Assembly (NCBI RefSeq): GCF_000155735.2
Contig: NC_020908.1
Span: 2,981,001 to 3,045,000 of the forward strand
Direction: 5' to 3'
Length of the DNA: 64,000 nucleotides
Source: Octadecabacter arcticus 238
GTDB lineage: Bacteria; Pseudomonadota; Alphaproteobacteria; Rhodobacterales; Rhodobacteraceae
Shown here: piece by piece, positions 3,701 through 61,845 of the stretch
How positions within the stretch are numbered: the stretch's first letter is position 1
Layout: the number at the start of each line of letters is the position of its first letter
The notes under the pieces: generated by a model
Seen by the model: the letters and a program-made list of their open reading frames with translations, nothing else
What the model was told of the DNA's origin: nothing
The model's database searches: none
Program-made: the position numbers and the translations under genes

Positions 3701-4528
3701 GTCAATGGCAATGAACGCATCGCGACAATAACCCAGTGGCTCGACACCAACCCCTTCCCCACCTCCGTCAGCTTCGAGTGGACTGGCGATCAAGAAGACC
3801 AAGCCGAATCCGGTGCGTTCCTCGCCAAGGCCTTCGCGGGCGCACTGGGCTTGATGTTCATCATCCTGCTGGCACAATTCAACTCGGTCTATAACTCGGT
3901 GCTTGTGCTGTTGGCGGTAATCCTGTCCACAACGGGTGTGCTGATCGGTATGCTGGTCATGGATCAGGCGTTTTCGATCATCATGACAGGCACAGGGATC
4001 GTCGCCCTTGCGGGAATCGTGGTGAACAACAACATTGTTCTGATCGACACCTATCAAGAATACGAACGCTACATGCCCCGCACCGAGGCGATCACCCGCA
4101 CAGCAGAAGACCGTATTCGCCCTGTGTTGCTGACCACCATCACCACGATGGCGGGCCTTGCGCCGATGATGTTCGGGCTTTCGCTGGACTTTATCGGTGG
4201 TGGCTATTCCATCGACAGCCCAACATCGCTGTGGTGGAAACAACTGGCCACGGCAGTGGTCTTTGGCCTTGGCATCGCGACCGTGCTGACGCTGGTGTTC
4301 ACCCCGTCCATGCTGGCCCTGCGTGTCTGGGTCACGACCTACGCGCGCTGGGGTGCGCAGCTGCTGTCCAAACTGTCGATGGGCAATTCCAGCCGCGCCG
4401 CACAAGACTGGGCGCTGAGCCGCGAAGCCAAACTGGTAAAGGCACCAGAAATCATCTGGGACGATCCTGATGATGAGGTGCCGGTTCCTGTGATGGGACA
4501 AGCAGGCGCCCTCAAAGCGGCTGAGTGA
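764..4528 (+). CDS. RND efflux pump permease (AcrB/MdtC-like)
   Basis: This is a 1254-residue inner-membrane proton-driven exporter, longer than AcrB (about 1050). It has an N-terminal membrane helix, a first porter domain, helices 2-6 around residues 335-500, a second porter domain, and helices 8-12 near 1020-1200. The TM4 motif reads LVDGAIVVVEF, so the second Asp of the usual DD proton-relay pair is Gly. The TM10 region reads GIVVNNNIVLID where AcrB carries the relay Lys. Residues about 505-580 hold two extra hydrophobic segments not found in AcrB. These substitutions occur in other RND subfamilies, so the protein may still be active. It forms an operon with the adaptor, and its stop overlaps the desaturase start (TGATG). 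Confidence 0.93.
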   Translation: MIKIVDVAAARARMVIAFIILSLLAGGFAYYALPKEGEPDIEIPVIFVSVPFPGISAEDSETLLVQPMESQLRDLDGLKTMTATAAENYAGVALEFDFGWNKTETMADIRDAMNTVESEFPDGADNYSINEINFSEFPIIIVNLTGDVPERTLIQVAEDLQETVEGIEGVLEAPLTGQRAEMIEVIIDPLKLESYNVTASELIDVVTQNNLLIAAGEVETAQGSFAVKIPSSFDEPRDIYSLPVKINGDRVITLGDLAEIRLTFEDRASTARFNGTTTVALQVVKRRGFNLIDTAQEVRDVIDAEVAAWPQDLRDAVQVGLSNDQSRNVNSMVRQLEGSVLTAIALVMIVILATLGTRPALLVGFAIPTSFLLCFAFLAVMGVTISNIVMFGLILAVGMLVDGAIVVVEFADKRMQEGAGPMEAYTDAAKRMFWPIVSSTATTLCAFLPMLFWPGVPGQFMGMLPVTIIFVLSASLIVALIYLPVMGGVTGRMSRAFGNTSDALKARLPWFVNALLVLPAIMIVFTGAMMTLNPGYLTGEQFNNGGFFAALPGMIVFLLGGVAVSITVGAAKIERPAKRIKAGYRRTIFGRFIHFIAGNPIMPIVSIVGIVFLVYSTFIFFGANNNGVEFFVENEPEQAIVYVQARGNLSIAEKDILVRQVETITLQEPGIQSVFAFAGEGGLNQNTSGASGPKDAIGQLQIELVPWDDRPAFARANDIDLATLDGDLVIARLQTALDTIPGIRTEILNLSMGPGSAKPVHLRLSGGNWDELRVATSLARDQFDTTTGLTLIEDSRPLPGIDWEITVDVQKAGRYGANVAAVGGMVQLVTRGILLDTMRVDTSDEEIEIRVRLPEADRVLSTLDSLRVRTSSGLVPLSNFITRAPVPELAQIDRIDQNRYFDVKADVAPNLTKFTIGEGDDLSVLGLFRELQDSDAAPDANRTIMTSDGTIFVLVDLIDAPNVAAVQTAITDGDALPVAVNGNERIATITQWLDTNPFPTSVSFEWTGDQEDQAESGAFLAKAFAGALGLMFIILLAQFNSVYNSVLVLLAVILSTTGVLIGMLVMDQAFSIIMTGTGIVALAGIVVNNNIVLIDTYQEYERYMPRTEAITRTAEDRIRPVLLTTITTMAGLAPMMFGLSLDFIGGGYSIDSPTSLWWKQLATAVVFGLGIATVLTLVFTPSMLALRVWVTTYARWGAQLLSKLSMGNSSRAAQDWALSREAKLVKAPEIIWDDPDDEVPVPVMGQAGALKAAE

Positions 4529-42648: not shown

Positions 42649-42760
42649 TCCCACCAGAGTCGGACTTGCAACAAACCGCCGAACCCAACTTTGGATTATT
42701 GATCAACGCGGCGAAAATTCATAACCTTTGTCCAAACATAAATGGCCAAGGATCGTCTCG

Positions 42761-43201
42761 ATGAAAAACACTGTCTCGCTCGCCGCACTCGCCGCCCCCC
42801 TAACGCTGGCGGCAGGGTCCGTTTGGGCCGATGATTTGGCCGCATCATGGGATCTTCTGGCCGCGATCTCAGTCGAAGAAATCGTGACCGACACGACCTA
42901 TGAAGTGCGTAAAATCTTTCCCGCCGCCGTTGAGAACGGCATCGATCAGTTTGACATCACGGGCTTCATCGTGCCGCTGACCGACGGGCCAGACATCACC
43001 GATTTCATTCTTGTGTCCGATATGGGGTTCTGCCCGTTTTGCGGATCGCCAGAACACGGCACATCCTTGCAAGTGACAATGGCAGACCCTTTGACAGGCT
43101 TTGAAGAAGGCAGCCGCATCACCCTGCGCGGCGCCCTTCAAGCCGTGACCGATCCAGAAACATGGCAGACGACCGTAATGACAAACGCCCGCGCCCTATA
43201 G
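42761..43201 (+). CDS. Exported protein with CxxC motif, unknown function
   Basis: This 146-residue protein has a clear signal peptide (MKNTVSLAALAAPLTLAAGSVWA, cleavage after AxA near residue 23). The mature part contains FILVSDMGFCPFCGSPEHG, a CxxC pair in a beta-rich setting that could bind metal or undergo thiol chemistry. It resembles the small periplasmic DUF3299-like proteins, but I am not sure. ATG 42761 is preferred over the in-frame TTG at 42728. An unusual palindromic element begins 20 bp after the stop. Confidence 0.75.
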   Translation: MKNTVSLAALAAPLTLAAGSVWADDLAASWDLLAAISVEEIVTDTTYEVRKIFPAAVENGIDQFDITGFIVPLTDGPDITDFILVSDMGFCPFCGSPEHGTSLQVTMADPLTGFEEGSRITLRGALQAVTDPETWQTTVMTNARAL

Positions 43202-43220: not shown

Positions 43221-43269
43221 AATTTTGTACAAACCATGCACAAGGGTGCCGGATTTTTGTACAAAACCG
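43221..43269 (+). repeat. Paired-palindrome intergenic element, copy A (split by IS4)
   Basis: It reads TTTTGTACAAACCATGCACA, then 12 variable bases, then TTTTGTACAAAACCG, and originally continued as TTAAAAC, now found beyond the IS4 at 44446. The two TTTTGTACAAA palindromes are 32 bp apart centre to centre. The same arrangement occurs on the minus strand at 61321-61377. Probably a protein-binding site or a dispersed extragenic repeat. Confidence 0.7.
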
Positions 43270-44435
43270 CATACTACACGACAGTAGGGTGGTTGAGGGT
43301 GTCAGAAGGTGATTTAGGAGCGGACTCTTATCGCTAAAAAAGGTTCCACGGATGATCACGAAAGCCCTGACGACCCTCAAGAAGAGGTTATCCCCCCATT
43401 TAGAGTTGAGCAACAGTCGCCTTGAAACGATGTGCCTCTTGATCATGGGAATGGTGAATGCCCGGACGGTAAATTTGAGCCATCTGGCCTGTGAGTTTCC
43501 TACCGATAGCAAGGTTGAAAGCACCTACCGTCGCCTACAACGCTTTTTCCAGCATGTTGATCTTGGCTCGGATTGGGCGGCCCCCTTGCTTGTTAAAATG
43601 ATTGGTTCTGGCCCCACCTGGCATTTATGCTTGGACCGAACAAATTGGAAAATTAGCCAACGCCATGTCAACTTCTTGGTCTTAGCCATTGTCACACGCC
43701 GCCACCGTATTCCGTTGATGTGGAGCGTTTTGGGGCGTGCAGGGAACAGCGATACTGCTCAGCGCATTGCCTTGATGAAACGTTATCTGTCGGTGTTTGA
43801 GGTCTCCACCATCAAGTTCTTGTTAGCGGACCGGGAATTCATTGGAGCACAATGGTTGGATTTTCTTCATAAAAACAACGTCCCATTTGTCATCCGTATC
43901 AAAGCAAACCAACTTGTGACCACACAGGACGGGAAAACGCAAAATCTAAGCACCTTGTTGCGCACCTGTCGCGGTAAGCGCAACTTTGATGCCCGATTTG
44001 GAGGCAACAATTTGGGGGAGGCCACGTGGTTTAGCTTTGCTGCAAAGCGCATCAAGGGGGGTGAGCTTTTGATCGTCGTCTCTAACCGGCCCGCACATCG
44101 GGCCCTCGCCACCTACAAGAAAAGATGGGCCATTGAGAGCCTCTTTGGCGACACAAAGACACGCGGCTTCAATCTTGAAGACACACGACTGACCATCTCC
44201 AAAAAACTTGAGCTTCTTTTAGGTCTCGTTGCGCTCGCGGTTGCATGGGCATCTAAAACCGCCACAAAGCTTATTGGAGGCGGGAAAATGAAGCGGAAAA
44301 AACACGGATATTTTGCAAAGTCATTCTTTCGAATTGGCTTCGATCAGCTCCGTAAACTGCTCAGGTCAGACCCAAACGCCGCTGTCTCACCGTGGATACT
44401 AATTCCACACATAATCACAAGAGTCGTGTAGTATG
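43270..44435 (+). mobile_element. IS4-family insertion sequence, 1166 bp
   Basis: The terminal inverted repeats begin CATACTACACGAC at both ends. The flanks TACAAAACCG and ACAAAAACCG form an imperfect duplication of about 10 bp. One complete transposase is present. It has inserted within a conserved palindromic element, 20 bp before the start of the gene at 44456, separating that gene from its upstream DNA. Confidence 0.88.
43352..44431 (+). CDS. IS4-family transposase
   Basis: This 359-residue DDE transposase has acidic residues in WHLCLDRTNWK, FLLADREFIG and YKKRWAIESLFGDTK. The last shows the Y-x2-R-x3-E-x6-K signature of IS4. The protein looks complete and ends 4 bp before the right end of the element. 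The A+T content is higher than in the neighbouring chromosomal genes, as expected for a transferred element. Confidence 0.92.
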   Translation: MITKALTTLKKRLSPHLELSNSRLETMCLLIMGMVNARTVNLSHLACEFPTDSKVESTYRRLQRFFQHVDLGSDWAAPLLVKMIGSGPTWHLCLDRTNWKISQRHVNFLVLAIVTRRHRIPLMWSVLGRAGNSDTAQRIALMKRYLSVFEVSTIKFLLADREFIGAQWLDFLHKNNVPFVIRIKANQLVTTQDGKTQNLSTLLRTCRGKRNFDARFGGNNLGEATWFSFAAKRIKGGELLIVVSNRPAHRALATYKKRWAIESLFGDTKTRGFNLEDTRLTISKKLELLLGLVALAVAWASKTATKLIGGGKMKRKKHGYFAKSFFRIGFDQLRKLLRSDPNAAVSPWILIPHIITRVV

Positions 44436-44455
44436 ACAAAAACCGTTAAAACACC

Positions 44456-61212: not shown

Positions 61213-61320
61213 GACACAGGTCTCCAAAACAAACCGAGAGGTCTCAGCGGTTGAATAAGATGTCGGACAGGCGGCGCTGCTATTCAATAGCACGGTTCTG
61301 ATATCGCCTATTTGGGCGGG

Positions 61321-61377
61321 TTTTAGCGGTTTTGTACAAAACTTTGACCGCCGTGTGCATGGTTTGTACAAAATTTC
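61321..61377 (-). repeat. Paired-palindrome intergenic element, copy B
   Basis: On the minus strand it reads ATTTTGTACAAACCATGCACA-like sequence (identical to copy A over 20 bases), 12 variable bases, then TTTTGTACAAAACCG followed by CTAAAAC. The palindrome centres are 32 bp apart, exactly as in copy A. It lies 16 bp after the stop of the DUF3291 gene and about 110 bp before the start of the exported protein gene. Confidence 0.72.
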
Positions 61378-61392
61378 GCCGTAAGTATTTGT

Positions 61393-61845
61393 TTACGTTT
61401 TGGGCGATTTGGCGCGAATCCAGTCCCAGCCGAACGCACGCGCGCTGGGTCCGTTTTCGCGCAGGTCGTCGAGGCGCGCGAGCGCGTCTTCGCGGGTCGG
61501 CAACTGACCCTCCTCAATCCACCGCATGACGAAATGCTGCTCACCCAGCACCTCAAACCATTCGGCTTTGCGGTCCATGAATTTGGCATGGATGGTTTTG
61601 TACACGAACGCCTCAAGACTTGGCAGATCTTCCCAAACGGTGAGGTTGAACACCAGTTGCGGATCGTCGCCAATCGCGTTTTCGGTTTTGCCCGAGCCCT
61701 CGGTCGCACCCTCAGACATCCAGACGAATCCGGGCATGCGTTTTCCAAGGCCATTAATGCGATCAAGGTTGTCCATGAATTCTTTGACGCGCAGATCATC
61801 CGTGGGGGCGAGAAGACGGCCAATGTTGAGTTCGGCGAGGTGCAT
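61393..61845 (-). CDS. DUF3291-family protein
   Basis: This 150-residue protein of the dimeric alpha/beta-barrel type contains HLAELNIGRLLAPTDDLRVKEF, GFVWMSE and LVFNLTVWEDLPSLEAFVYKT, all typical of DUF3291 (monooxygenase-like fold, function unknown). Its start overlaps the stop of the membrane protein gene upstream by one base, so both are part of the nuo transcription unit. Confidence 0.82.
   Translation of the reverse strand: MHLAELNIGRLLAPTDDLRVKEFMDNLDRINGLGKRMPGFVWMSEGATEGSGKTENAIGDDPQLVFNLTVWEDLPSLEAFVYKTIHAKFMDRKAEWFEVLGEQHFVMRWIEEGQLPTREDALARLDDLRENGPSARAFGWDWIRAKSPKT

Follow-up and report, generated by a model that had tools for sequence, protein, structure and literature searches.

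The 64-kb stretch of DNA analysed here, which we call the window, is part of the 5.48 Mb genome of Octadecabacter arcticus and lies on a contig of 5,200,279 bases. It holds two copies, A and B, of an intergenic element made of two palindromes, and both were found where the preliminary description had placed them, with copy B on the other strand. Copy A begins at position 43223 with TTTTGTACAAACCATGCACA, and its second palindrome, TTTTGTACAAAA, occupies 43255-43266; the cores, TTTGTACAAA, lie at 43224-43233 and 43256-43265, giving a centre distance of 32 bp. The same centre distance of 32 bp separates the cores of copy B, at 61331-61340 and 61363-61372 on the minus strand. Allowing at most one mismatch, TTTTGTACAAAA occurs five times in the window, a number reached by none of 100 shuffles. 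The features of the two loci are as follows.

42728..43201, plus strand: gene upstream of copy A, without a Pfam match; its stop codon lies 22 bp before copy A
43223-43269, plus strand: copy A as a whole, with the right flank up to the IS; IS4-like insertion behind palindrome 2
43223..43234, plus strand: copy A palindrome 1; core TTTGTACAAA at 43224-43233, then CCATGCA
43235..43254, plus strand: copy A variable spacer; 1 mismatch to the sister genome in 22 letters
43255..43269, plus strand: copy A palindrome 2 and right flank ACCG; core TTTGTACAAA at 43256-43265
43270..44435, plus strand: IS4-like insertion in the right flank of copy A; ends CATACTACACGAC / GTCGTGTAGTATG
43352..44431, plus strand: transposase of this IS, 359 aa; Pfam DDE_Tnp_1
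44436..44452, plus strand: remainder of the copy A right flank beyond the IS; repeated target and TTAAAAC
61320..61329, minus strand: copy B right flank; minus-strand CCGCTAAAAC
61330-61373, minus strand: copy B as a whole, on the other strand relative to copy A
61330..61341, minus strand: copy B palindrome 2; core at 61331-61340
61342..61361, minus strand: copy B variable spacer; 4 mismatches to the sister genome in 22 letters, against 0 of 20 in the palindromes
61362..61373, minus strand: copy B palindrome 1; core at 61363-61372
61393..61845, minus strand: DUF3291 gene upstream of copy B; its stop codon lies 20 bp before copy B

The insertion in copy A is bordered on its left by ACAAAACCG and on its right by ACAAAAACCG, which we read as an imperfect target duplication. 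The preliminary description had joined the right flank of copy A across this insertion to the TTAAAAC beyond it. At the same place a sister genome carries an IS-free allele (L090) that reads TTTTGTACAAAACCGTTAAAACACCG, confirming that the joining was correct.

A search of the whole genome, as the preliminary description had proposed, raised the two copies to 17 places on the O. arcticus chromosome, 12 of them exact and 5 damaged. The 12 exact pairs were obtained by searching gaps of 21-23 bases (nine pairs at 22, three at 21), and the reversed-pattern control gave none. When mismatches were allowed at the 22-base gap, three further pairs with one or two changes appeared and none with three, so that the set has no blurred tail there; two more damaged copies were recognised by eye among single half-sites (L400 at 3912335 and L399 at 3448221). 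Exact half-sites number 32 in O. arcticus, 24 of them in exact pairs, and the corresponding reversed-pattern control gave 2. The 15 sites examined showed no positional bias along the chromosome (Rayleigh p about 0.39), and the skew computed from 20 O. arcticus stretches was too noisy to place the terminus.

We then looked at related Rhodobacteraceae. Only four of 394 sampled family genomes, O. arcticus counted in, contain an exact pair, as do 3 of 19 Octadecabacter genomes. In 12 relatives picked as carriers, however, the search yielded 84 pairs with a control of 0 in the 12. A scan of genome contigs returned at least 118 stretches with the pair, the counts per genus being lower bounds; by title, the Rhodobacteraceae among the matches listed belong to Octadecabacter, Shimia, Mameliella, Roseovarius, Jannaschia and single others. 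The 75 of 84 carrier pairs that were listed, from a search open to gaps of 18-26, have gaps of 20-22, with one of 19; Chachezhania has one pair with a gap of 23, and all 34 Mameliella pairs have a gap of 20. Centre distances in the pairs listed are mostly 30-32 bp, near three helical turns, with 29 and 33 occurring once each. The distance of exactly 32 bp first claimed for the element thus stands in copies A and B and is not general, since three of the 12 exact O. arcticus copies have 31 bp and other genera have 30-32 bp. Three Octadecabacter genomes recur in what follows: G412, which we take to be Octadecabacter sp. Hybrid_5; G414, presumably HE327; and G407, which is probably O. antarcticus 307. 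Relaxed pairs (TTTGNNCAAA), searched in 157 relatives, matched in 10 genomes, namely O. arcticus, G412, G414 and seven others with one or two matches each; three genomes have one control match.

The element measures 45-63 bp. Its functional parts are a pair of perfect palindromes, TTTTGTACAAA(A), spaced by about three helical turns. Octadecabacter copies occur in both orientations and, when oriented, read TTTTGTACAAACCATGCA, about 12 variable bases and AGTTTTGTACAAAACCGTTAAAAC; the variable stretch between conserved parts, first noticed in the two copies of the window, is seen across these copies. Mameliella copies consist of GTACGTTTTGTACAAAACGTAC, RNCGWWWYCNGCA and TTTTGTACAAA, followed by a looser CCGGCAAGG and GTTAACC, and Shimia copies, with the sequence TTTTGTACAAAACGG.TATT.GSCC..AAAA.TTTTGTACAAAACGGTCATTTTGCC, are a direct repeat of two similar units. 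Because the right flanks are similar in Octadecabacter, Shimia and Jannaschia, we infer that these elements are one family with genus-specific versions.

Comparison of O. arcticus with its sister genome G412 at 12 loci showed differing bases at 2 of 240 palindrome positions, 17 of 262 spacer positions and 88 of 1383 positions in the flanks within 60 bp. A separate count over 10 of those loci gave 1 of 200, 16 of 218 and, in flanks within 40 bp, 53 of 800 (palindromes against spacers, Fisher p = 2.6e-4). Since exact matching had been used to find the G412 loci initially, the flanks were searched directly for decayed copies, and none was found in the 40 of 61 candidate stretches that were scored. 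Three O. arcticus loci fall outside the comparison, two having no match in the draft G412 and one lying off a contig end. Judged from these alignments, the palindromes are under purifying selection, and a protein very probably reads the element.

A different picture was obtained in two congeners. G407 has no exact pair; it has elements at the same places as O. arcticus, and all seven that could be aligned through are damaged, with changes at 17 of 140 palindrome, 41 of 151 spacer and 172 of 783 flank positions, the remaining loci being lost, different or not alignable. G418, compared at four loci, is more decayed (18 of 80, 32 of 86 and 141 of 480, respectively). As the palindromes of both genomes have changed less than their surroundings, the decay looks later than the split and, on these alignments, may be recent or partial. 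At two loci of G414, both palindromes are exact while enclosing an unrelated spacer, once of different length, and other loci have decayed. Of the 15 places in the three Mameliella species, 11 are shared as orthologs by at least two of them. Over 27 pair comparisons, which share species and are not independent, 47 of 540 spacer bases and 574 of 2160 bases of the 40-bp flanks differ; the palindromes had been chosen by exact match, and the one difference counted in 540 palindrome bases is an alignment artefact. Positions -6 to -1 and 10 to 15 were no part of the search pattern; 14-15 of the 15 loci agree at each of them and 0-2 of the 27 ortholog pairs differ, although letters 10-15 were also used in choosing the orientation.

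Presence and absence of the element could be followed at two loci. At the gatC locus, compared in 19 genomes, the element stands after the stop codon of a tadA-like gene in O. arcticus, G412, G414, G407 and G418 (damaged in the last two), while a short gap without it is found in seven genomes (G406, G408, G411, G413, G415, G419 and G422); five have another upstream arrangement (G145, G409, G410, G416 and G417), and G420 and G421 were left unparsed. A DUF4166 gene was found in 10 of the 19 genomes, and in O. arcticus and G412 the element is translated in frame within it as KFCTN...FVQNRQN. In G406, G415 and G420 this stretch falls short by 21 codons; it is of intermediate length in G408, G413 and G422, damaged in G414 and ambiguous in G409. 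The pattern at both loci indicates that the copies are additions to an older locus, with borders between filled and empty sites too blurred to name a target duplication. The DUF4166/saccharopine-dehydrogenase-like gene with the in-frame copy (L026, 3213-4160, minus strand) encodes 315 aa in O. arcticus, compared to about 540 aa in relatives, and looks truncated.

Gene contexts were taken from a codon-usage gene caller, the tadA-like neighbour of the gatC copy being corrected by Pfam. A stop codon is the nearest gene boundary for 22 of the 24 Mameliella copies (which occupy 13 distinct places, one of them, with two loci, being ambiguous), for 11 of the 13 in Shimia and for 8 of the 15 in O. arcticus, and half of the Mameliella loci (12/24) lie 14-22 bp behind the stop codon. 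Orientation relative to the nearest stop is the same in 11 of the 12 Mameliella places judged, out of 13 with context. By the gene caller, 4 of 13 Shimia and 8 of 24 Mameliella copies are placed between convergent genes, and one copy among the 15 O. arcticus places with context lies inside a gene. A start codon follows 77-122 bp downstream of 8 of the 15 O. arcticus copies. Around copy A (as the IS-free allele of the sister), copy B and one Mameliella copy, no sigma-70-like promoter was matched within about 120-200 bp; alphaproteobacterial promoters may differ.

The neighbours identified by Pfam are mixed housekeeping genes: arfB-like, tadA-like, rpiA, pdxJ, pheS, a class IV aminotransferase, fabA-like, phosphoglucomutase, gltD-like and argG. 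To these, leuC, leuD, gatC and nuo can be added by reading. Few genes carry a copy behind them in more than one genus, namely rpiA (Octadecabacter and Mameliella) and, named by reading, a gltD-like gene (Mameliella and Halocynthiibacter) and a phaB-like gene (Jannaschia and Shimia). A GntR gene and a LacI gene each stand beside a single Mameliella copy, and no regulator recurred across genera within 2.5 kb when the top two matches per locus pair were considered, with L048 and L050 left out. The preliminary description had proposed looking for a common gene set downstream of the copies and for one conserved regulator gene beside them; neither emerged, nor did a consistent link to promoters or starts. 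Its wider expectation is borne out in part: further copies exist and their spacing is near-constant, mostly 30-32 bp, but the link to gene starts is not a constant one. In the leuC-leuD gap, inspected by eye in 17 genomes, exact palindromes occur only in O. arcticus and G412. Several congeners (L270-L281) have about four CCATAC repeats in this gap, where O. arcticus has the element; these are spaced by roughly one helical turn and follow a gene that by eye looks FtsK-gamma-like.

The two arms of the element can pair, and folding was compared with that of shuffled sequences. Spacers were not more stable than shuffles, 37 of 300 being as stable in Octadecabacter, 66 of 300 in Shimia and 206 of 300 in Mameliella; in a mixed remainder of 10 loci, spacer pairing was above chance (7 of 300). 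Pairing between left and right flanks in Mameliella was likewise not above chance, with 178 of 300 swaps as stable. Folded singly, the Mameliella right flanks (36 bp) were better than all shuffles (0 of 150), while for the other flanks and controls 6-122 of 150 shuffles were as good, including 8 for the Octadecabacter left flank and 6 for its distant control, and 8 and 14 for the Shimia left and right flanks, with 48 and 42 for their controls. In Mameliella (L343-L376) this flank beyond palindrome 2, 40-65 bp after the start of palindrome 1, is structured above chance and in several loci resembles GGCAAGG...CCTTGCC. This structured right flank is perhaps a gene-end hairpin coupled to the element.

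Terminator-like matches were found 80 bp from copy B and adjoining one Mameliella copy, where the tail enters the element, and none was found at copy A in the IS-free sister allele. The palindromes themselves make no GC-rich stem with a T run in the three regions scanned. By eye, intrinsic-terminator-like hairpins adjoin L016, L058 and L082. Rfam models at gathering score, applied to 11 loci, gave no match at the element; the sole matches, RNase P and a cobalamin riboswitch, lie at a distance of kilobases. Gene-end hairpins near some copies do not explain the invariant palindromes.

We put at close to even chances the reading that the element is a small double site, once mobile, for a putative dimeric DNA-binding protein and has been retained in a boundary or architectural role, not as a promoter operator. 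From its presence and absence, it would have multiplied within Rhodobacteraceae genomes by inserting as a small element and, after landing, would have been kept in place, often directly behind stop codons. Where active, two homodimers of one sequence-specific protein would occupy neighbouring positions on one face of the DNA, as the symmetry, spacing and purifying selection together suggest. Two protein dimers on one face had already been proposed for copies A and B, and the proposal gains indirect support at the sequence level from palindromes that are nearly invariant between O. arcticus and its sister, a spacer and flanks that drift and a spacing of about three turns across genera. The location near gene ends, in some cases between convergent genes and in Octadecabacter in either orientation, with no common pathway seen, points to sites that would act as architectural or transcription boundaries rather than promoter operators. 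In the G407 lineage, the putative reader protein was probably lost or changed, after which the sites would have decayed. A more far-reaching version, possible but doubtful, is a roseobacter chromosome-organising system in which a putative dimeric protein reads about 12-20 paired palindromes that a small mobile element, later domesticated, had placed behind genes; the whole set would decay on loss of the reader, as in the G407 lineage.

Much of the same evidence could be expected of a selfish element of REPIN or MITE type, with two conserved ends and a variable spacer, that serves no purpose for the host, is mobilised in trans by a transposase and looks conserved through recent spread: the copies are dispersed and mostly extragenic near gene ends, their consensus is lineage-specific, their insertions are polymorphic and their arms can pair. 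We nevertheless consider this unlikely, as orthologous copies keep their palindromes and not their spacers, a pattern not to be expected from recent copying or gene conversion. Spacer pairing is not above chance in the three large sets, and blastn found neither plasmid nor phage copies with one Mameliella element and no plasmid copies with one Octadecabacter element. Moreover, PF01797 (Y1/RAYT) has no match in nine of 13 genomes (the 12 carriers and O. arcticus, several being drafts), all nine being among the 12 carriers and including all three Mameliella with their 11-12 copies; matches were found in O. arcticus, G394, G403 and G404. The 48 matches in O. arcticus, many with identical scores as a multi-copy IS would give, are roughly in line with the 40 IS200/IS605 genes and pseudogenes in a table in the available part of its genome paper (PMC3646047).

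Operators of one transcription regulator for downstream genes, the reading toward which the preliminary description leaned, appear improbable. The start codons downstream of 8/15 O. arcticus copies, the conservation of dimer-type palindromes (2/240 vs 17/262 and 88/1383), the amino-acid and translation genes among the neighbours (leuC/leuD, pheS, gatC) and the GntR and LacI genes at single Mameliella copies would suit such a role, and individual copies may serve as plain promoter operators. Against it stand the mixed neighbours and the few shared between genera, the stop-codon bias, the convergent placements in Shimia and Mameliella, the in-gene copy and the negative promoter search around the three copies. 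An RNA element, a 3'-end structure ending or stabilising transcripts, is in our judgement likewise improbable, since each arm is a palindrome in itself and does not vary in its letters, properties that RNA pairing would not require, and since one copy is translated in frame. The palindromes' failure to form a stem with a T run, the Rfam result and spacers without selected pairing in the large sets count against it too. Its support comes from the arms' ability to pair, from the hairpins beside L016, L058 and L082, and above all from Mameliella, with its short distance behind stop codons, a constant orientation that an RNA role would also give, right flanks that beat 150 of 150 shuffles and the terminator-like match beside one copy; an RNA-level part may exist in that genus.

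Palindromic repeats scattered over a genome are commonly regarded as selfish or as passive hairpins. Here, the palindromes are kept letter by letter in one genome pair and damaged at the same positions in sister species, a contrast that lends itself to the search for the reader protein and to the question why the sites stay behind genes. Site sets that organise the nucleoid or chromosome, such as those of SlmA, Noc or MatP, comprise ten to some tens of palindromic sites per chromosome, near genes without a common function. The element is like these sets in number and mixed neighbours and differs from them in its paired sites at three-turn spacing and its lack of positional bias on the O. arcticus chromosome. 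Literature matches to TTTGTACAAA included no bacterial operator by title among those listed, and many are presumably Gateway attB1 primers; nothing combined GTACAAAA, Roseobacter and a binding motif. The available text of the O. arcticus genome paper contains none of the terms palindrom-, repetitive and repeats (PMC3646047).

Among repeat families, REP/REPIN elements with their RAYT, as described in the accessible part of one study, are likewise short extragenic doublets with conserved ends, a less conserved spacer and a species-specific consensus, but REPINs reach hundreds of copies compared to 10-20 here, and the arms here are perfect self-palindromes (PMC3116915). As a candidate, a RAYT-driven REPIN fits poorly; no RAYT was found in most carriers, and spacer pairing is not above chance in the large sets. 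CGTC REPs, as far as the available text describes them, are also alphaproteobacterial, dispersed and without a dedicated transposase, with some intragenic units; GTAG/CGTC REPs, however, have a tagged end at a short stem-loop, whereas the conserved part of the element is TTTTGTACAAAA twice (PMC3733652). By eye, no fixed GTAG/CGTC end was present in 15 Octadecabacter and 20 Shimia rows and 15 Mameliella loci. Rickettsia palindromic elements, in the portion of the source available, share the in-frame, translated copy (here the DUF4166 locus only) and differ in measuring about 150 bp, against about 63 bp here, where one copy among 15 O. arcticus places is intragenic (PMC10969869). CcrM-associated repeats of Caulobacter, covered in the same portion, are similarly dispersed, intergenic and alphaproteobacterial; unlike them, the element has no conserved GANTC, although some Mameliella spacers hold GATTC (PMC10969869).

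Outside the Rhodobacteraceae, the genome-contig stretches among the matches listed look scattered, except for a different dispersed repeat in Prochloron didemni (L079, L080, L085, L114, L118, L151 and L155), in which the same palindrome pair stands around GGTGATGCAGC or a similar sequence. A scan of viral contigs gave 12 stretches, none recognised as Rhodobacteraceae. One AT-rich IMG/VR contig (L175) has three TTTGTACAAA-N22-TTTGTACAAA pairs, at 3881, 6375 and 7777, with TTTCATGAA in mid-spacer; at least two of them lie directly behind open frames, and they look unrelated to the roseobacter element. Within the family, a Roseovarius metagenome-assembled genome (L089, L092 and L112) has pairs with extra TTGTAC units inside them, giving three or four phased half-sites in some copies.
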